From Alphaproteobacteria bacterium (GTDB lineage: Bacteria > Pseudomonadota > Alphaproteobacteria > JAVJVX01): a DNA stretch of 64,000 bases. The notes beneath the pieces are model-generated. The model saw only the letters and a list, made by a program, of their open reading frames with translations, searched no databases and was not told where the DNA came from. The position numbers and the translations under genes were made by a program. Each line of letters opens with the position of its first letter. Within the stretch, counting starts at the first letter, position 1. Location of the stretch: positions 124,001 through 188,000 of the forward strand of contig JAVJVX010000005.1 in NCBI GenBank assembly GCA_040220875.1, read 5' to 3'. Positions 6,966-53,971 of this stretch are shown in pieces.

Positions 6966-9647
6966 TCAGGCGTCAACGGGCTCGGACGATTCCTCGAGGG
7001 CGGCGCGGGCCGCGGCCAGCCGGGCGATCGGCACCCGATAGGGCGAGCAGGAAACGTAATCCAGCCCCACCCGTTCGCAGAAATAGATCGAGGTGGGATC
7101 GCCGCCATGCTCGCCGCAAATGCCGAGCTTAAGCCCGTCGCGGGCCGCCCGGCCGCGTTCTGCCGCGATGCGGACGAGCTGGCCCACGCCATCGATATCC
7201 AGGGTGACGAAGGGGTCCGTACCGAAGATGCCTTTCTGCAGATAGGCCTCCATGAAGTTCTGCGCATCGTCGCGCGACAGCCCGAGCGTCGTCTGCGTCA
7301 GATCGTTCGTGCCGAAGCTGAAGAATTCGGCCGTCTCGGCAATGTGATCTGCCGCCAGCGCCGCGCGGGGCAACTCCACCATGGTGCCCACCAGGTAGTC
7401 GACCTTGACTCCGGTCTGGCTCCTCGCATCTTGTGCCGCCTTGTCGATGACCTCCTTCAGAATATCGAGTTCACGCCGGGTGGCGACAAGAGGCACCATG
7501 ATCTCGGGCAGCACCTTGTCCTTGCCCTTCTTGATGACATCGCTTGCCGCCTCGAAAATGGCCCGCGCCTGCATTTCGTAAATCTCGGGATAGGTGATTC
7601 CGAGCCGGCAGCCGCGATGGCCCAGCATCGGGTTCGCTTCCTTCAACCGGATGGCCCGCTGGCGCACCTCGTCGACCGATTTCTCGGTTGCGCGGGCAAG
7701 ATTTTCCATCTCCTCGTCCGTATGCGGCAGGAATTCGTGCAGCGGCGGGTCAAGGAGACGAATGGTCACCGGCAGGCCCGACATGATCTCGAACAGTTCG
7801 ACAAAATCCTGGCGTTGCATGGGTTCGATCTTGTCGAGCGCCTTACGCCGTCCCTGCACGTTTTCGGCCATGATCATCTCGCGCATGGCGAGAATGCGGT
7901 CGTCCTGAAAGAACATGTGCTCGGTCCGGCAAAGGCCGATGCCTTCGGCGCCGAATTCGCGAGCCACTTCCGCGTCGCGCGGCGTTTCGGCATTGGTACG
8001 CACACGCAATCGGCGCACCGAATCGGCCCATTCCATGATCTGGGCAAAATTGCCCGAGAGGTCGGGCTTGACCATCGGCACCTCGCCCAGCAGCAACTCG
8101 CCCTTCTCGCCGTCGAGGGTTACCATGTCGCCGGCCTTGAGAACCGTATCGCCTATCGTCATGGTGGCGTCGGCATAGCTGATGCGGAATTCGCCTGCCC
8201 CCGCGATGCAGGGCCGGCCCATGCCGCGCGCCACCACGGCCGCGTGGCTGGTCATGCCGCCGCGGGTCGTGAAGATGCCCCTGGCCGCGTGCATGCCGTG
8301 GATATCCTCGGGGCTCGTTTCGATGCGCGCCAGGATCACGGCTTCGCCGCGCGCCGTCCGCGCTTCCGCATCGTCGGAGCTGAACACGATCCGGCCCGAC
8401 GCCGCGCCGGGTGACGCCGGCAGGCCGCGGCCGAGCACTTGGCGCTCGGCCTTGGGGTCGAGCGTCGGATGCAGAAGCTGGTCGAGGGAGGCGGGATCGA
8501 TTCTCTTGATCGCTTCCTCGCGGGAAATCAGCCCTTCCTCGACCATGTCGACCGCGATCTTGAGCGCCGCCGCCGCGGTACGTTTCCCGTTCCGGGTCTG
8601 CAGCATGTACAGCGTGCCCTTCTGAACGGTGAACTCGATATCCTGCATGTCGCGATAATGCTTTTCGAGCTGGGCGCGGACCTCCACCAGTTGCCCGAAC
8701 ACATCCGGCATGACCTCTTCCATTGCAGGCAGGTCGGAACCATTGGACTTGCGGCCGGCAACCGTCAGGTGTTGCGGCGTGCGGATGCCTGCAACAACGT
8801 CCTCCCCCTGCGCGTTGACGAGGAACTCGCCATAAAACTCCTTCTTCCCGGTGGAGGGGTCGCGTGTGAAAGCGACGCCCGTCGCACAGTCCCCGCCCAT
8901 GTTGCCGAACACCATGGCCTGCACGTTGACCGCCGTTCCCCATTCAGCGGGGATGTTGTGCAGCCGTCGGTAGGTCCGGGCACGCTGGTTCATCCAGCTC
9001 TTGAAGACGGCGCCGATCGCGGCCCAGAGCTGGTCGCGCACATCCTGCGGGAAGGGCTCGCCGAGCTCCTGCTGGATCTTTTCCTTGTAGATGCCAATCA
9101 GATGCTTCCAGTCACCGGCCGAAAGCTCGGTGTCCAGATCAAAGCCCTTGTCCGCCTTGTGCAGTTGCAGCTCTTCCTCGAAGACATGATGCGGCACGCC
9201 GAGCACAACATCGCCAAACATGGTGATGAAACGCCGGTAGCTGTCATAGGCGAACCGCTCGTCCCCGCTGTGCCGGGCGAGGCCTTCCACGGTTTCGTCG
9301 TTGAGACCGAGATTGAGAACGGTGTCCATCATGCCAGGCATGGAGGCGCGGGCACCCGAGCGTACGGACACGAGGAGGGGGTTGGAAGCGTCACCGAATT
9401 TGGCGCCGGTGCGCCTCTCGACCAGTGCGAGAGACTCGTTCACCTGCTCCGCAAGATCGTCGGGATAGCTGCGATCGTGATCATAGAAATAGGTGCACAC
9501 CTCGGTGGTGATGGTGAAGCCCGGCGGCACCGGCAGACCGAGATTGCTCATCTCCGCCAGATTGGCGCCCTTGCCGCCCAGCAGTTCGCGCAGCCCCGCC
9601 ATCCCCTCGGCCGCGCCATCGCCAAAGCTGTAGACCCATTTCGTCAT
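6966..9647 (-). CDS. ppdK: Pyruvate, phosphate dikinase
   Basis: An 893-residue full-length PPDK interconverting pyruvate + ATP + Pi and phosphoenolpyruvate + AMP + PPi. Seen: the N-terminal ATP-grasp domain starting KWVYSFGDGAAEG and GGKGANLAEM, the swivelling phosphohistidine loop TTRGGMTSHAAVVARGMG near residue 460, and the C-terminal PEP/pyruvate barrel with GLCRTEHMFF and the active-site Cys in GICGEHGGD near residue 838. The start ATG overlaps the glyS stop by four bases (ATGA), so it is probably co-transcribed with glyQ-glyS. Convergent with the Hpt gene. Confidence 0.96.
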   Translation of the reverse strand: MTKWVYSFGDGAAEGMAGLRELLGGKGANLAEMSNLGLPVPPGFTITTEVCTYFYDHDRSYPDDLAEQVNESLALVERRTGAKFGDASNPLLVSVRSGARASMPGMMDTVLNLGLNDETVEGLARHSGDERFAYDSYRRFITMFGDVVLGVPHHVFEEELQLHKADKGFDLDTELSAGDWKHLIGIYKEKIQQELGEPFPQDVRDQLWAAIGAVFKSWMNQRARTYRRLHNIPAEWGTAVNVQAMVFGNMGGDCATGVAFTRDPSTGKKEFYGEFLVNAQGEDVVAGIRTPQHLTVAGRKSNGSDLPAMEEVMPDVFGQLVEVRAQLEKHYRDMQDIEFTVQKGTLYMLQTRNGKRTAAAALKIAVDMVEEGLISREEAIKRIDPASLDQLLHPTLDPKAERQVLGRGLPASPGAASGRIVFSSDDAEARTARGEAVILARIETSPEDIHGMHAARGIFTTRGGMTSHAAVVARGMGRPCIAGAGEFRISYADATMTIGDTVLKAGDMVTLDGEKGELLLGEVPMVKPDLSGNFAQIMEWADSVRRLRVRTNAETPRDAEVAREFGAEGIGLCRTEHMFFQDDRILAMREMIMAENVQGRRKALDKIEPMQRQDFVELFEIMSGLPVTIRLLDPPLHEFLPHTDEEMENLARATEKSVDEVRQRAIRLKEANPMLGHRGCRLGITYPEIYEMQARAIFEAASDVIKKGKDKVLPEIMVPLVATRRELDILKEVIDKAAQDARSQTGVKVDYLVGTMVELPRAALAADHIAETAEFFSFGTNDLTQTTLGLSRDDAQNFMEAYLQKGIFGTDPFVTLDIDGVGQLVRIAAERGRAARDGLKLGICGEHGGDPTSIYFCERVGLDYVSCSPYRVPIARLAAARAALEESSEPVDA

Positions 9648-36969: not shown

Positions 36970-38436
36970 ATGGATGCGCCCGTCATCGTCTGGTTTCGAC
37001 GCGATCTTCGGCTGGCTGACAATCCGGCCCTCTCGGCCGCGTTCCAGACCGGCAGGCCGATCGTGCCCCTTTACGTGCTGGAAGATACGCCAGATCTGCC
37101 GCCACCGGGCGCCGCCGGCAGCTGGTGGCTGCACCACAGCCTTCGCGCACTCGGGGAAAGCCTGGCCGGAGCGGGACTCCGCCTCATCCTGCGCCGGGGC
37201 GATCCGGAAGAGGTATTATCGGCGGTCGTCGCCCGGTCCGGTGCCGGAGCGGTTTACTGGAACCGGCGCTATGTGGCCGCCGCCGCCACCCTCGACACGC
37301 GTATCAAGGCAAAGCTCCGGCAAGGCGGCATCGCTGTCGAGACCTTCGACGGCGCCCTCCTTTTCGAACCCCGGACCATCCGGACCGGCGCCGGCGCGCC
37401 CTACAAGGTCTTCACGCCCTTCTGGAAAGCGTGTCGGGCAGCACCGGCGCCGCGCGATCCCTTGCCCGCGCCGCCCAGCACGCAGTCCACCGGTCACGCA
37501 GCGCCCGATGACGCCTGGAAGCTGGCGAGTGACGATCCGGACGACTGGCGGCTGGCGCCCCGCAATCCCGACTGGGCCTCGGGATTTGGCGAGTGCTGGC
37601 AACCGGGCGAAGCTGGCGCGGCCGCCCGGCTGTCCAACTTCCTCCGGTCGGATCTCGAGCGGTATGCGGTCGATCGTGATCGGCCTGATCGGGCCGCGAC
37701 CTCACGCCTGTCGCCCCACCTTCATTTCGGCGAGATCAGCCCCCACATGGTATGGCACCAGACCCGCATGCGGATGGCGGACGGCGCGGGCACGCTGGCG
37801 ACGAGTGGTGAGAAATTTCTCGCCGAGCTGGGCTGGCGCGAATTTTCACACCACCTGCTGTTTCATTTCCCGGCCATGGAGAGCGGAAACTTCCGTCCGG
37901 AATTCGACAACTTTCCCTGGATCGATAACCCCGACGCCCTTCGCGCCTGGCAACGGGGCCAGACAGGCTATCCCCTTGTCGACGCCGGTATGCGGGAATT
38001 ATGGCGAACCGGCTGGATGCACAACCGGCTCCGCATGGTCGTCGCCTCGTTCCTGACCAAGAATCTCCGGATCCATTGGCGGGAGGGGGCCGCCTGGTTC
38101 CAGGACGCGCTGGTCGACGCCGACAGGGCAAACAACATTGCCGGCTGGCAATGGGTCGCCGGCAGCGGCGCCGATGCCGCTCCCTATTTCAGGATTTTCA
38201 ATCCTGTCTCCCAGGGCGAAAAATTTGATCCTTCTGGCGCTTACGTCCGCCAATGGGTGCCCGAACTGGCCGCCCTGCCGGACGCCGTCATCCACAAGCC
38301 CTGGACAGCGAGCCGCGCGCTCCTCGCCGAGGCGGGAATCGTGCCGGGCCAAACCTATCCCTGCCCGCTCGTGGATCACAAAATCGCGCGGCGCGACGCC
38401 CTCGCCGCCTATGACACGATCAGGGGCCGCAAGTAG
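36970..38436 (+). CDS. phrB: Deoxyribodipyrimidine photo-lyase (cryptochrome/photolyase family)
   Basis: A 488-residue FAD light-driven DNA repair enzyme. Seen: the antenna-domain start VIVWFRRDLRLADNPAL at 5-21, the FAD-binding helical domain with SRLSPHLHFGEISP near 245, the tryptophan-rich FLAELGWREFSHHLL, and the C-terminal signature NNIAGWQWVAGSGADAAPYFRIFNP (in parts) that lines the FAD and dimer site. Substrate is probably cyclobutane pyrimidine dimers. ATG at 36970 opens the conserved part. Divergent from the Lys-rich protein gene. Confidence 0.94.
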   Translation: MDAPVIVWFRRDLRLADNPALSAAFQTGRPIVPLYVLEDTPDLPPPGAAGSWWLHHSLRALGESLAGAGLRLILRRGDPEEVLSAVVARSGAGAVYWNRRYVAAAATLDTRIKAKLRQGGIAVETFDGALLFEPRTIRTGAGAPYKVFTPFWKACRAAPAPRDPLPAPPSTQSTGHAAPDDAWKLASDDPDDWRLAPRNPDWASGFGECWQPGEAGAAARLSNFLRSDLERYAVDRDRPDRAATSRLSPHLHFGEISPHMVWHQTRMRMADGAGTLATSGEKFLAELGWREFSHHLLFHFPAMESGNFRPEFDNFPWIDNPDALRAWQRGQTGYPLVDAGMRELWRTGWMHNRLRMVVASFLTKNLRIHWREGAAWFQDALVDADRANNIAGWQWVAGSGADAAPYFRIFNPVSQGEKFDPSGAYVRQWVPELAALPDAVIHKPWTASRALLAEAGIVPGQTYPCPLVDHKIARRDALAAYDTIRGRK

Positions 38437-38450
38437 CGCCCGAAAGGACC

Positions 38451-38490
38451 CATGGGCGCATGTGCGCATGGGCGCATGTGCGCATGGGCG
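38451..38490. repeat. 16-bp tandem repeat (2.5 copies) upstream of the ParA operon
   Basis: The unit CATGGGCGCATGTGCG occurs at 38451-38466 and 38467-38482, with a half copy CATGGGCG at 38483-38490. It lies 15 bases after the photolyase stop and about 170 bases before parA. Iteron-like spacing and position upstream of a ParA operon suggest a centromere-like site; this is inference. Confidence 0.75.
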
Positions 38491-38516
38491 GCCTCGGCCG
38501 GGCATCGAAAAAAGAC

Positions 38517-38575
38517 CGATTAAATTCCCGGCAAAATCTATATAAATACTTGATTTATAATACTTTTTATTCAGC
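38517..38575 (+). promoter_or_regulatory. AT-rich putative promoter of the parA operon
   Basis: A locally AT-rich stretch in GC-rich DNA, with a consensus-like TATAAT at 38556-38561, about 95 bases upstream of the parA ATG. No good -35 match is visible. Confidence 0.4.
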
Positions 38576-38656
38576 CCCCCTTAAAGACTCCGTGCCATCC
38601 TCCCCACAGGTGTCGTTGGCGTCAGCGACGCGGGAACGGTCTTGGGAGCTAAAAAG

Positions 38657-39379
38657 ATGCAGGTCCTCGCCTTCGCCTCGCAGAAAGGCGGCTCGGGAAA
38701 AACGACGCTGGCCGGCCATATCGCCGTCGCGGCCGACCATGCGGGTGGCGGGCCGGTGGCACTCATCGATACCGACCCGCAGGGCAGTTTGAGCGACTGG
38801 TGGAACGTGCGCCGCGCCGAAACGCCCGTCTTTGCCGCACCCCGGATCGATCAGCTGGCCGACGATATCGCACGGCTGCGCGATATCGGCGTGGCGCTTC
38901 TCGTGATCGACACACCGCCTGCCATCACCGACATGATCCGGCGCGTGGTGGCCCTGTCCGATCTCGTGGTCATTCCGACGCGCCCCAGCCCGCACGATCT
39001 TCGAGCCGCGGGAGCCACGGTGGACATCGTCGAATTTCTCGGCAAGCCCCTGGTCTTCGCGGTCAACGGCGCCACACCTCGGGCGCGCATTACCGGCGAA
39101 GCGGCCGTCGCCCTCTCGCAACACGGAACCGTCGCCCCGGTCACGGTGCACCAGCGCACCGATTTCGCGGCGAGCATGATCGATGGCCGCACGGTCGGCG
39201 AGATCGATCCCAAAAGCCGGTCGGCGCGCGAAATCGTCGAACTCTGGCAATACCTGAGCACGCGCCTTCAGAGGCACCGGCCAAGCGTCGCCGGGCGCTC
39301 CGCCGTCATTCCGTTGCCGGATCCGAATGCGAGCGAGCGCGACCGGCTGCGACCCCGCGCGGGAGCCACCCGGCCATGA
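38657..39379 (+). CDS. ParA-family Walker ATPase (short, type Ib-like)
   Basis: A 240-residue ATPase starting MQVLAFASQKGGSGKTTLAG. Seen: the deviant Walker A KGGSGKTT with the signature Lys at about 10-17, Walker A' region LIDTDPQGSLSDWW near 36-49, and Walker B-like LLVIDTPPAITD near 79-90. No N-terminal HTH is present, as in type Ib ParA and MinD/ParF relatives. It is followed, with ATGA overlaps, by a ribbon-helix-helix-like gene and a PAS_5-like gene, making a compact three-gene operon. ATG at 38657 is preferred to TTG at 38642. Confidence 0.88.
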   Translation: MQVLAFASQKGGSGKTTLAGHIAVAADHAGGGPVALIDTDPQGSLSDWWNVRRAETPVFAAPRIDQLADDIARLRDIGVALLVIDTPPAITDMIRRVVALSDLVVIPTRPSPHDLRAAGATVDIVEFLGKPLVFAVNGATPRARITGEAAVALSQHGTVAPVTVHQRTDFAASMIDGRTVGEIDPKSRSAREIVELWQYLSTRLQRHRPSVAGRSAVIPLPDPNASERDRLRPRAGATRP

Positions 39380-39750
39380 CAGATGCGGCCCGCCTTTCGA
39401 TGGGGCCGGCCCGGCTCGGCGCCAGCCTGCTGGCGCGCAAGGGCCTCGCCCGCCCGGCCCAGCGCCGGCCGCTGACCCTGTCGCCGCTCCAGGCCGGGGG
39501 CGCCGAAATCCTGCCTGATGTGTCCGGCGGTGAGACAACCGCGGCGCGGCTCAAATTCACCCTCCGCCTCGATGGCGCGCGCCATCTGAAACTGCGCCTG
39601 GCGGCCGCCCACAGCGGGCGCAGCATGCAGGTCATCGCGCTCGAGGCGATCGATAAATACGTGCGCGATTTGAGCCGGGAAATCCGTCCGGGTGAATGCC
39701 CCTGCCTGCAGGGAAGCGACTGGGACGCGGGTGAGGGAGGCCGGGAATGA
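39376..39750 (+). CDS. Small ribbon-helix-helix-like protein, probable ParA partner
   Basis: A 124-residue protein. Seen: a basic N-terminal half, then LKFTLRLDGARHLKLRLAA followed by SGRSMQVIALEAIDKYVRDL at about 59-99, the strand plus two-helix pattern of a RHH DNA-binding domain; and a short Cys-containing tail (CPC). The ATG overlaps the parA stop (ATGA). In type Ib partition systems the second gene is a RHH centromere-binding protein that stimulates ParA, so this is the expected partner. No direct sequence match to a named ParG family is claimed. Confidence 0.7.
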   Translation: MTDAARLSMGPARLGASLLARKGLARPAQRRPLTLSPLQAGGAEILPDVSGGETTAARLKFTLRLDGARHLKLRLAAAHSGRSMQVIALEAIDKYVRDLSREIRPGECPCLQGSDWDAGEGGRE

Positions 39751-40397
39751 CCGCCCGGGCCGAACCGGGCTATGCCACGCTGGCCGAGGTCCGGATCCGC
39801 CGGCAACCGGCCCGAATGCTGGCGTCGGCGCCGGCGCCGCCAACCCGGCCCGACGCGTCCGTGCCCCCCGCCCCACCCCCTGGCACGCCGGCGGCCACCA
39901 CCCCGCCGACGCACCATGCGAAGTCCCCCGAGATCCTGGCGCGCCATTGGAGCGAAAAACGCCTTGGGAGGACGCTGCCGAGCTTGTCGGATTTCAATCT
40001 CGACGAGATTGCGTGCGACTGGCCGGGCACGGCCCTGATGGCGTGGCGCGGCGGCCACCTCCAGCTTCTCCGCCGCCTTGCCCCCGGCGACGGCACGGGG
40101 CCGAAACGGGTGGCCTACGCCTATTCTCCCGCCGTCCTCGACTGGTTCCTCCATACCTGCCGCGAGGCCGCCCTGGCCGGACACCCGGTCATCCGGGGCC
40201 GGCATTTTCCGGAGCCCGGCAGGCCCGCATCGCACACCGCCCCCTACACCGCCATGGCCCTCCCCGTCACCGAAGACCCGGCGCCGGAAGCGGGCGGCCC
40301 TCAGGGTGCCGTCGGATTTCTCCTCAGCCTGCTGAGCGGTCCGGCCGGGGCCCCGCCGCCTGTCCCCCATCCCGACAGCCCCGCCGACGAGAGCTAA
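39747..40397 (+). CDS. Hypothetical protein with PAS_5-like domain, third gene of the ParA operon
   Basis: A 216-residue protein. Seen: a Pro/Ala-rich linker (about 26-57), then LGRTLPSLSDFNLDEIACDWPG at about 73-94 (in parts), whose W/R-x-LPSxxDfxxxEI pattern resembles the start of the alphaproteobacterial PAS_5 domain, and a later APYTAMALPVTED typical of its last strand. It overlaps the RHH gene by four bases (ATGA). A sensing or protein-binding role in the operon is inferred. Confidence in the exact domain is moderate. Confidence 0.6.
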   Translation: MTARAEPGYATLAEVRIRRQPARMLASAPAPPTRPDASVPPAPPPGTPAATTPPTHHAKSPEILARHWSEKRLGRTLPSLSDFNLDEIACDWPGTALMAWRGGHLQLLRRLAPGDGTGPKRVAYAYSPAVLDWFLHTCREAALAGHPVIRGRHFPEPGRPASHTAPYTAMALPVTEDPAPEAGGPQGAVGFLLSLLSGPAGAPPPVPHPDSPADES

Positions 40398-40415
40398 AGG
40401 CTTGAAACAAAGCCT
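40398..40415 (+). terminator. Hairpin at the end of the parA operon
   Basis: AGGCTT (40398-40403) pairs with AAGCCT (40410-40415) around GAAACA, directly after the last stop. It is followed by GAATATTA, a weak T-run, so termination is uncertain. Confidence 0.4.
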
Positions 40416-40423
40416 GAATATTA

Positions 40424-40444
40424 TGCGATTGATAATCATTTGCA
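40424..40444 (+). promoter_or_regulatory. Fur-family box upstream of the unknown gene and znuA
   Basis: A 21-base near-palindrome with half-sites TGCGATTGAT and ATCATTTGCA around a single central A; its core GATAATCATT is the classic Fur hexamer arrangement. It sits 55 bases before the next start codon, in promoter position. Fur (iron) or Zur (zinc) could be the regulator; the linked znuA favours a metal regulon. Confidence 0.65.
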
Positions 40445-40498
40445 CTTATTGACGCGGCAGGCTAGGCTTTCCCCCTGATCACTATCGGGGGTCCACCC

Positions 40499-41011
40499 AT
40501 GGCGCCGCAAACCCTGCCCCGCAACCGGGATTTAACTCCAGCCTCTCTCGCCGGGCTGACACCGCCCGCGCGCCTCCTGCTCTGGGCGGCAAGGGCGTGG
40601 CTTCGTGGCCAGGTCACGGAACGGCCGGCCTGTCAGCAGATCCGGGGCCGCTTCCACCGGGCCGGCTGGAGCCAGGCCTTTGGGTATTTCGACGGCTTCA
40701 TGCATTTTCTGAACTTTCGCCAGCCCCTGCCGCCGGATTTTGACCGGACTTTCGGGCCCGATTTGACGGCGCTGGAGGAGGATTTCATCGCCAGCCTCGC
40801 CGCCCTCCAGCGCGACGAGGCGGACAGGCTGGTCATGTTTGCCCGTGCCCGGGTCGCCTGCGCCCCGGCCCGGATCGCCGCCCGGCATGTCGCGATGGAA
40901 ATGGTTTCCGCCATGAGCGAGGCCGGCGGCTGGCTGGAGGCGCCCGCGCCCGCCGGGGCGCCCGACCTGTCCCTGGCGCTTCTCGCCAGAACGCGCGCAC
41001 CTGTGTCATAA
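40499..41011 (+). CDS. Hypothetical protein (170 aa) behind a Fur-type box
   Basis: A 170-residue soluble, mainly helical protein starting MAPQTLPRNRDLTPASLAGL. Seen: ARLLLWAARAWLRGQ near the N terminus, an aromatic stretch FGYFDGFMHFLNF near 61-73, LTALEEDFIASLAALQRDEADRL, and ARHVAMEMVSAM near 128-139. No signal peptide or metal motif is obvious. The gene follows the Fur-type box and precedes the zinc-binding protein gene by 75 bases. I do not recognise the family; a role in metal starvation is inferred only from the box. Confidence 0.65.
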   Translation: MAPQTLPRNRDLTPASLAGLTPPARLLLWAARAWLRGQVTERPACQQIRGRFHRAGWSQAFGYFDGFMHFLNFRQPLPPDFDRTFGPDLTALEEDFIASLAALQRDEADRLVMFARARVACAPARIAARHVAMEMVSAMSEAGGWLEAPAPAGAPDLSLALLARTRAPVS

Positions 41012-41086: not shown

Positions 41087-42094
41087 ATGGTTTCATCTAG
41101 CCCGGGGCTGGCGCCTCCTGCGCGCTGGCTCGCCATCTTCCTGCTTCTTTCGGCCCTGCTGGCACCCGTGCCGGCGGCGCGGGCCTATGACGACCCGTCG
41201 GCGCCGCGTGTGGTAGCGACGCTGCCCCCGGTGCATGGCCTCGTCGAGGCGGTGATCGAGGGCACCCCGGCCCGGGCCACCGGACTTCTGTCCAATTCCG
41301 GCTCGCCCCACAGCTACGCGCTGAAGCCGAGCGATATCGCGAGCCTGCGCGAGGCCGACATCGTCGTCTGGATCGGCCCCGGGATGGAGCGCTTTCTCGT
41401 CAAGCCATTGAGCACGATCCTCGGCCCCGATACCGAACTCGTCACGCTGGTGGATACGCCGGGGCTGGATTTGCTGCCCGCCCGCGGGCTCGACACCCTG
41501 CATGGGCATGAGCGCGGGCACGGTGGCGATGAGGGCGCGGACCACCGCCCGGGCCCCCGGCCGAACGCGCCCCGCGATCTTCACATCTGGCTCGATCCGC
41601 TGCGCGCGCAGTTGCTGGTCGACCGTATCGCCATCGCACTCGGCCAGGCCGACCCGGCCAATGCCGCGCGCTACACGGCCAACGCGGCCCGTTTCAAGTC
41701 AGCGCTGGCCGATCTCGATGGCGCGATCGAAGCCCGCCTGGCACCCCTCCGCCACCGGAAGCTGGCCGTGTTTCACGACGCCTACCAGTATTTCGAGGCG
41801 CGTTACCGGCTTCAGGTCGTGACCTTCCTGACGCCTCATCCGGGCCGCACGCCGGGCGCGAAAAGCCTCGAGTCCATCATGGCCCGCATCAGCGCGACCG
41901 GCGCCCGATGCCTGGTGGTGGAACCCCAATTCCGCCCGGCCCTGGCCGAACAGGTGGCGCGCGACCTCGATCTCCGCCTGACGACCGCCGATCCGCTGGG
42001 CGGGCCGGCCGCCGGCGACGCCAGCGCCTATCTGCGCCTCCTCCGGGACCTGGCCGACAGCTTTACCACCTGTCTCGAGGCGGCCGGGCCATAG
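41087..42094 (+). CDS. znuA: ZnuA-like zinc/manganese ABC transporter substrate-binding protein
   Basis: A 335-residue periplasmic metal receptor (cluster 9 family). Seen: a signal peptide to about 33 (ending PAARAY), metal-ligand His in SPHSYALKP (75), a His-rich loop between residues 139 and 153, His in DLHIWLDP (166), and VFHDAYQYFEARY (about 230) with the third His. The permease and ATPase genes (znuB, znuC) are absent from the window, so this is an orphan receptor. Probably in the same metal-responsive unit as the preceding gene. Confidence 0.88.
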   Translation: MVSSSPGLAPPARWLAIFLLLSALLAPVPAARAYDDPSAPRVVATLPPVHGLVEAVIEGTPARATGLLSNSGSPHSYALKPSDIASLREADIVVWIGPGMERFLVKPLSTILGPDTELVTLVDTPGLDLLPARGLDTLHGHERGHGGDEGADHRPGPRPNAPRDLHIWLDPLRAQLLVDRIAIALGQADPANAARYTANAARFKSALADLDGAIEARLAPLRHRKLAVFHDAYQYFEARYRLQVVTFLTPHPGRTPGAKSLESIMARISATGARCLVVEPQFRPALAEQVARDLDLRLTTADPLGGPAAGDASAYLRLLRDLADSFTTCLEAAGP

Positions 42095-53726: not shown

Positions 53727-53782
53727 TTACGGGCCCACCCGAGGGCCCCTTGCATTACGGGCCCACCCGAGGGCCCCTTACA
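53727..53782. repeat. 28-bp direct repeat (2 copies) upstream of leuA
   Basis: Two adjacent 28-base copies (53727-53754 and 53755-53782) that differ at one position (TTGCA/TTACA near the end). Each copy contains GGGCCC twice around ACCCGA, so each is itself an inverted repeat able to form a hairpin. Confidence 0.8.
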
Positions 53783-53971
53783 TATGTGCCGGCGGCACCG
53801 CCAAAACAAGCGCCCCGGCCCACCAGCCTCGCCGATCATGGTAAATATTTCCTCAACCGGCACCCACGGCCGCCACACCTGGGCGAGCCTGGTTAACGGG
53901 TTTAGGTGTAACGCCAAAACCCATTGTTCCGCAACGATTTTTTGGGACGAGCCCCGAGGAGCCGGCCGGCG

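Follow-up and report, generated by a model that had tools for sequence, protein, structure and literature searches.

Organisation of the operon

The window is the whole stretch of DNA analysed here, 64,000 nucleotides of an alphaproteobacterial genome, and its positions are used unless stated otherwise. Three ORFs on the same (+) strand, called ParA, gene 2 and gene 3, follow each other directly, and we confirmed that they are joined by ATGA overlaps, as an earlier sequence-only reading had described (Table 1). That reading placed the operon at 38441-40420; the operon itself is real, while its 3' end is at 40397. For ParA, an alternative TTG start at 38642 is less likely than the ATG at 38657. 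Going by its relatives, gene 2 might start at the ATG at 39400, in which case no overlap with ParA is left.

Table 1. Features of the ParA operon (window positions)
Feature	Position	Strand	Remark
16-bp tandem repeat (5 x 8-bp CATGKGCG)	38451-38490	.	possible operator
CtrA-box-like TTCA-N7-TTAA	38570-38584	+	87 bp upstream of ParA start; 7/8 matches
ParA	38657-39379	+	240 aa; ATG start with GGGAG ribosome site
Gene 2	39376-39750	+	124 aa; alternative start ATG 39400
Gene 2 motif LGASLLARKGLARP (residues 14-27)	39415-39456	+	putative ParA-contact/activation motif
Gene 2 RHH domain (residues 58-103)	39547-39684	+	helices 67-80 and 84-103, pLDDT 90-98
Gene 3	39747-40397	+	216 aa
Gene 3 N-terminal motif ATLAEVRIRR	39774-39803	+	S11, L12, R18 columns invariant or nearly so (21 homologues)
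Gene 3 folded core (residues 61-197)	39927-40337	+	AlphaFold2 core pLDDT mostly above 90, putative PAS-like topology

The tandem repeat upstream of ParA, CATGGGCGCATGTGCG, consists of 2.5 perfect 16-bp copies (TRF score 80) or, read as an 8-bp unit, of five copies with 87% identity, and is followed on its 3' side by an AT-rich stretch, both as first reported. It lies far above shuffled sequence (z about 11 at lags 8 and 16), and the array is found once in the whole genome. The conservation in relatives that had been expected of it was not found: the repeat is absent upstream of ParA in 95 relatives, and for this reason we rejected it as a conserved centromere. Of the cis-acting repeats that characterise type Ib partition systems there are the 8/16-bp repeats in the window only and none in the relatives.

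The operon is preceded by a photolyase gene (36970-38436) and followed by orf4 and then ZnuA. Relatives do not conserve the photolyase beside ParA, contrary to the association proposed earlier. As, in addition, the repeat is absent in relatives, nothing points to the suggested link with light or redox sensing. No rep, relaxase or phage genes are present in the ~9 kb with listed ORFs around the operon. The plasmid location of type Ib systems does not apply here, as the operon lies on an 804-kb contig and its examined flanks contain no rep gene. Orf4 (40499-41011) belongs to no Pfam family and the ZnuA-like gene (41087-42094) was recognised by eye; before orf4, at 40420-40460, there is an AT-rich sequence resembling a Fur/Zur box, TGATAATCATTTGCA. 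The top TRF score in the window belongs to a 28-bp tandem repeat at 53727-53783, with two copies that are 96% identical.

The ParA ATPase

ParA is a deviant Walker-A ATPase with KGGSGKTT at residues 10-17, a core of residues 1-205 and no HTH domain. The best PDB matches of the family profile are 5u1g (2.4e-21) and ParF (4dzz, 3.1e-21). By sequence it is the short, ParF-related ParA lacking an N-terminal HTH that is found in type Ib systems. In Pfam it matches AAA_31 with 44.8 bits. Its score against the ParA_partition equivalog NF041546 (162.4 bits) is under the cut-off of 180 and leaves it outside the equivalog; all 13 relatives match this family, counted as family matches irrespective of the cut-off. 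We rejected a VirC1/VirC2 relaxosome helper, as the VirC1 equivalog scored 36.7 bits against a cut-off of 313; Pfam VirC1 does pass, as a superfamily match.

Orthologues are 57-73% identical across Alphaproteobacteria, and a comparison with chromosomal orthologues gave 61-72%. Many of them (e.g. L044, L067 and L110) end in a conserved tail, GFGRRVVG or FGxRG, which the window ParA does not have. The window's genome (G000) also encodes two canonical Soj-like ParA proteins (C1:3248 and C5:794722), one of them on a 5.5-kb contig.

Gene 2 encodes the ParA partner

Judged by sequence and structure model, the product of gene 2 resembles ParG: it is a ribbon-helix-helix (RHH) protein whose N-terminal motif is of the ParA-activating kind. 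No single member passes Pfam well; family members match RHH models including ParG. Searched against the PDB, the family profile matches the RHH protein 56B (7.5e-5) and ParG (1p94, 1.2e-4), and by Foldseek the AlphaFold2 model matches the RHH folds of CopASO, Arc and ParG (1p94, prob 0.97, rmsd 1.1). Absence of an RHH fold is ruled out by profile and model alike, and the earlier proposal of a type Ib-like pair, a short ParA with an RHH partner, is borne out by the matches to ParF and ParG. The downstream RHH partner with an N-terminal tail, typical of type Ib, is present according to sequence and model, its binding to DNA or a centromere being putative.

The most conserved part of gene 2 is the N-terminal ASLxxxLLxRKGxAxP, in which K22, G23 and A25 are invariant among 42 homologues. 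ParB-type motifs made up of aliphatic and basic residues activate ParA proteins (PMC12462528), and because of this we read the motif as a putative ParA contact. Of the ATPase-stimulating partner tail of type Ib systems, the sequence of gene 2 shows the motif. As a DNA pattern, LLxRKGxAxP has one match each in 12 of 14 ParA-bearing genomes, always in the gene behind ParA, and just one in the window's genome. The 289 genomes sampled yielded 48 matches, 29 of them directly behind ParA by our own count and one an unlinked RHH paralogue. Three unlinked matches in ParA-positive genomes were inspected: this RHH paralogue, an apparent chance match and one with no clear ORF. A genome-wide cargo tag was rejected, since there is essentially a single true match per genome, behind ParA.

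Gene 2 is almost never lost while ParA is kept: it stands behind ParA in 90 of the 92 loci with enough sequence, one exception, L047, having a protein composed of the motif, a transmembrane (TM) helix and a SPOR domain instead. Such a motif-TM-SPOR protein is the partner in L042, L047 and L074 (TM helix assigned by eye), and the RHH domain is missing there.

Two further gene arrangements were seen. At L077:6384-6875 (+), adjoining ParA and gene 2, a second motif protein is a receiver domain (DivK-like by eye) with the N-terminal SLLARKGDAAP. A MucR/Ros-like regulator (by eye) comes after ParA and gene 2 in L048 (about 7840-8241) and L053 (about 7590-8003), two different families.

Gene 3 belongs to a PAS_5-like family

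The gene 3 family was built from homologues gathered from ParA operons. Its N-terminus carries a conserved [A/G]SLxx[I/V]x[I/V]R[R/K], and its domain shows the PAS_5 pattern YWxxLRxGRRxP...DxxxIxxxWPN...ALPLS...VDHVLCH. The earlier description of gene 3 as PAS_5-like holds for the family, in which 12 of 21 homologues match PF07310 (best 9.4e-7), and not for the window copy taken singly, which has no Pfam match. By sequence, gene 3 matched no solved structure; Foldseek of the model gave PAS/CHASE4 matches that are weak (E 1e-3 to 2e-2) and have a low TM-score.

In the 289 genomes the ten best matches to gene 3 (E<=7e-21) are all inside ParA operons, and the remaining ones (E>=5e-18) are generic PAS_5 proteins located elsewhere that mostly match in the PAS part. 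For these reasons gene 3 is, on sequence, a divergent PAS_5 offshoot specific to the ParA operon. It occurs in about a quarter of the ParA operons and is often missing while ParA stays, which is one half of the loss of genes 2 and 3 that the sequence-only reading had set as a refutation. By eye, its N-terminal motif resembles that of gene 2, and gene 3 of L041, with ASLDASLVRRRTAAP, is intermediate.

Distribution and relation to plasmid partition systems

In an even sample of 289 alphaproteobacterial genomes, the ParA module was detected in 44 (ParA at E<=1e-60), and a scan of contigs gave at least 571 confirmed ParA relatives. Chromosomes of culturable Sphingomonas, Novosphingobium and Sneathiella, among others, contain it. 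Some genomes hold two or three ParA copies (G007, G009, G123, G124, G140, G193, G208, G276 and G300).

On plasmids of beta-, gamma- and alphaproteobacteria, ParA proteins up to 66% identical were found. Several have as neighbours rep genes and a gene whose small product combines this motif with an RHH-like C-terminus, e.g. MSKTASLTSGLVAKKGQAAPA. In the tree most chromosomal ParA proteins are separated from those of plasmids, a split with limited support. Outside chromosomes the closest relatives of the module are plasmid partition pairs that carry this motif and lie beside rep, and it therefore looks like a recruited plasmid partition system; this is the simplest reading of the sequences, with a presumed direction of transfer.

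The plasmid loci L244 and L245 contain a perfect 20-bp palindrome, ACGCAAATACGTATTTGCGT, likely the operator of the plasmid RHH partner on sequence grounds; this type of palindrome is absent from the window. A palindromic core, AAATACGTATTT, is common to the plasmid loci L244, L245, L246 and L250, ~40-60 bp upstream of ParA.

A CtrA box upstream of ParA

CtrA binds the consensus TTAA-N7-TTAAC (PMC7200025). Half-sites of the form TTAA-N7-TTAA (>=7/8 bases) occur upstream of ParA in 76 of 95 loci, which are not phylogenetically independent, compared with 12.4 in dinucleotide shuffles; at spacings other than N7 they occur in 14-34 of the 95 loci. A box is present in 53 of 55 sphingomonad loci and in 23 of the 40 remaining loci, where 7.1 were expected. 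The box in the window is imperfect, with a chance of about 13% as calculated from the shuffled rate. A CtrA gene is present in the window's genome, with 70% identity to Caulobacter CtrA. Among the plasmid ParA loci just one in seven has a CtrA-like box. From these sites, expression of the module is probably controlled by CtrA.

Association with the Tad pilus

The Tad marker cpaB was the first specific cargo marker tried. It is present in 39 of 44 ParA-positive and 97 of 245 ParA-negative genomes (Fisher 6e-10), and among genomes of 2.4 Mb or more the counts are 39/43 versus 68/129 (3.5e-6). Within families having both ParA states cpaB was found in 16 of 18 genomes with and 6 of 16 without ParA (stratified permutation p=0.001). 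Five of the 44 ParA-positive genomes have no cpaB, and three of those are fragmented. PopZ (PF10691), tested alongside, was discarded as a partner because it is present in most genomes and therefore uninformative.

A TPR gene comes next in 56 loci in total, after gene 2 in 52 (sphingomonads) or after gene 3 in L060, L062, L064 and L085. All three TPR proteins scanned have a SPOR domain, one just under the Pfam cut-off, and this TPR-SPOR next gene occurs in the sphingomonads and in Kiloniellales. The operon protein is homologous to a TPR protein near the end of the tad cluster, in the position of TadD (L085 versus G041, 7e-43), and the tad-cluster copies of G041 and G158 are likewise TPR-SPOR proteins. 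Four sphingomonad tad clusters are missing the TPR gene; the ParA operons of the same four genomes, L044 among them, do carry it. TPR profiles are promiscuous (6e-50 for a TPR-rich protein of L052), and the strict TadD signature is present in 13 of 66 TPR matches; because of this we call the operon protein probably, not certainly, TadD-like. The window operon has no TadD, SPOR or tad genes, and the tad cluster of its genome is at a distance from it on this contig (C5:648-658 kb).

In P. aeruginosa, the pilotin TadD regulates how the secretin is assembled and where it is localised, and its Caulobacter orthologue CpaO is dispensable for piliation (PMC13170226). Tad has, besides this ParA, its own ParA/MinD-like CpaE, whose N-terminus was negative as a carrier of the motif. 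The link to Tad is a correlation, of which shared lifestyle or ancestry may be the cause. We put Tad forward as a hypothetical cargo with a provisional ranking, and, from the sequence associations, hold it just short of probable.

New in this study are the CtrA box before ParA, the co-occurrence with cpaB and the TadD-like TPR-SPOR next gene. The open-access literature that we searched contains no description of this system or of its function; subscription papers may differ.

Proposed function and alternatives

The families, the motif, the co-conservation, the CtrA-box enrichment and the Tad association were computed; DNA binding, ATPase activation, the cargo and the function of gene 3 are what we propose. 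ParA in its ATP-bound form would coat the nucleoid. The aliphatic and basic N-terminal motif of gene 2 would contact the edge of the ParA dimer and set off ATP hydrolysis, so that cargo bearing gene 2 would ride the ParA gradient. The RHH domain could bind DNA, at an operator or a locus, or serve to present the tails as a dimer. Gene 3, which combines a PAS_5-like domain with a similar motif at its N-terminus, may be a second ParA adaptor or a tuner. The most likely cargo would be one linked with the Tad (Flp) pilus and with the division site or pole, because operons of relatives often have the TadD-like TPR-SPOR gene and some gene 2 versions are motif-TM-SPOR proteins.

We are confident that the module is a positioning unit of the ParF/ParG type that has a partner protein dedicated to it. 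The fuller reading from sequence, of a chromosomal cargo-positioning module that derives from a type Ib plasmid partition system, is controlled by CtrA and moves a Tad-linked cargo, seems on balance probable, if narrowly so, and agrees in spirit with the chromosomal cargo positioning proposed earlier. More tentatively, and with rather less credence, a partition machine recruited to chromosomes under CtrA control could use modular adaptors with a similar ParA-contact motif (RHH, PAS_5-like, TM-SPOR and receiver) to position Tad machines and distribute them to the daughter cells.

The RHH domain of gene 2, the direct repeats just upstream of the window operon and the plasmid partition pairs as nearest non-chromosomal relatives would also suit the segregation of a chromosomal locus, a former plasmid or an integrated element, with gene 2 binding the 8-bp repeats as a centromere and ParA moving the locus. 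We regard this as unlikely: the repeat is unique to the copy in this genome, the examined flanks have no rep or mobility genes, the motif-TM-SPOR versions of gene 2 lack the RHH domain, and the genome already has two canonical ParA proteins. Nor would segregation predict CtrA boxes and TPR-SPOR partners. These same boxes, on the other hand, fit another polar or septal cargo, such as chemoreceptors, storage granules, a division factor or a CtrA/DivK signalling protein, to which the Tad association would be secondary. Septal peptidoglycan is the ligand of SPOR domains, and the motif occurs on TM-SPOR proteins and on the receiver domain of L077, which speaks for such a cargo. The covariation with cpaB within families and the linkage to the TadD-like gene favour Tad, and we judge a different cargo to be improbable, to a similar degree as locus segregation.

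A purely regulatory unit, in which the RHH protein is an autorepressor with ParA as co-factor and no cargo is moved, would agree with the palindrome upstream of plasmid ParA genes, which resembles an RHH operator, and with ParG, which also represses its own operon (PMC7308502). The putative ParA-contact motif is, however, the most conserved part of gene 2 and is kept where the RHH domain is lost, which makes this explanation very improbable.

ParA ATPases are general movers of bacterial cargo, although the chromosomal cargo systems described so far are few. The present module, found in hundreds of genomes across Alphaproteobacteria, offers a testable cargo and a testable regulator. If the cargo-positioning reading is true, it shows a plasmid segregation system turning to a task in cell biology, and placing Tad pili would be a new role for plasmid partition machinery.

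Comparison with known systems

The system shares with ParF-ParG of plasmid TP228 (type Ib) the short ParA without HTH, the RHH partner whose N-terminal tail is flexible and the gene order, and both proteins are related by sequence. It differs in being chromosomal, in the ASLxxxLLxRKGxAxP of its partner, in that no conserved centromere was found, and in having a CtrA box and extra PAS_5-like, TadD-like or SPOR partners.

We also compared the plasmid ParA-RHH pairs of Deefgea piscis (NZ_CP054145), PLAsvaD (KJ680225), Comamonas pZM22-2 and Xanthomonas pXCV19. Their ParA proteins are 59-66% identical, and their partners have an RHH-like end and a similar N-terminal motif (TASLTSGLVAKKGQAAPA in Deefgea piscis). 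Unlike the chromosomal module, these pairs are mostly located beside rep genes, have a palindromic operator-like site and lack gene 3.

CpaE/TadZ is a ParA/MinD-family ATPase tied to the localisation of Tad (PMC13170226). In contrast to the ParA described here, CpaE has a receiver domain, sits in the tad cluster and does not share the motif. McdAB and its kin have a different cargo, and the gene 2 profile matches McdB weakly (0.034). McdB is not known to be RHH-based. In common with our module, as we read it, McdAB and its kin combine a ParA ATPase and a small cargo adaptor for a cargo other than a plasmid.
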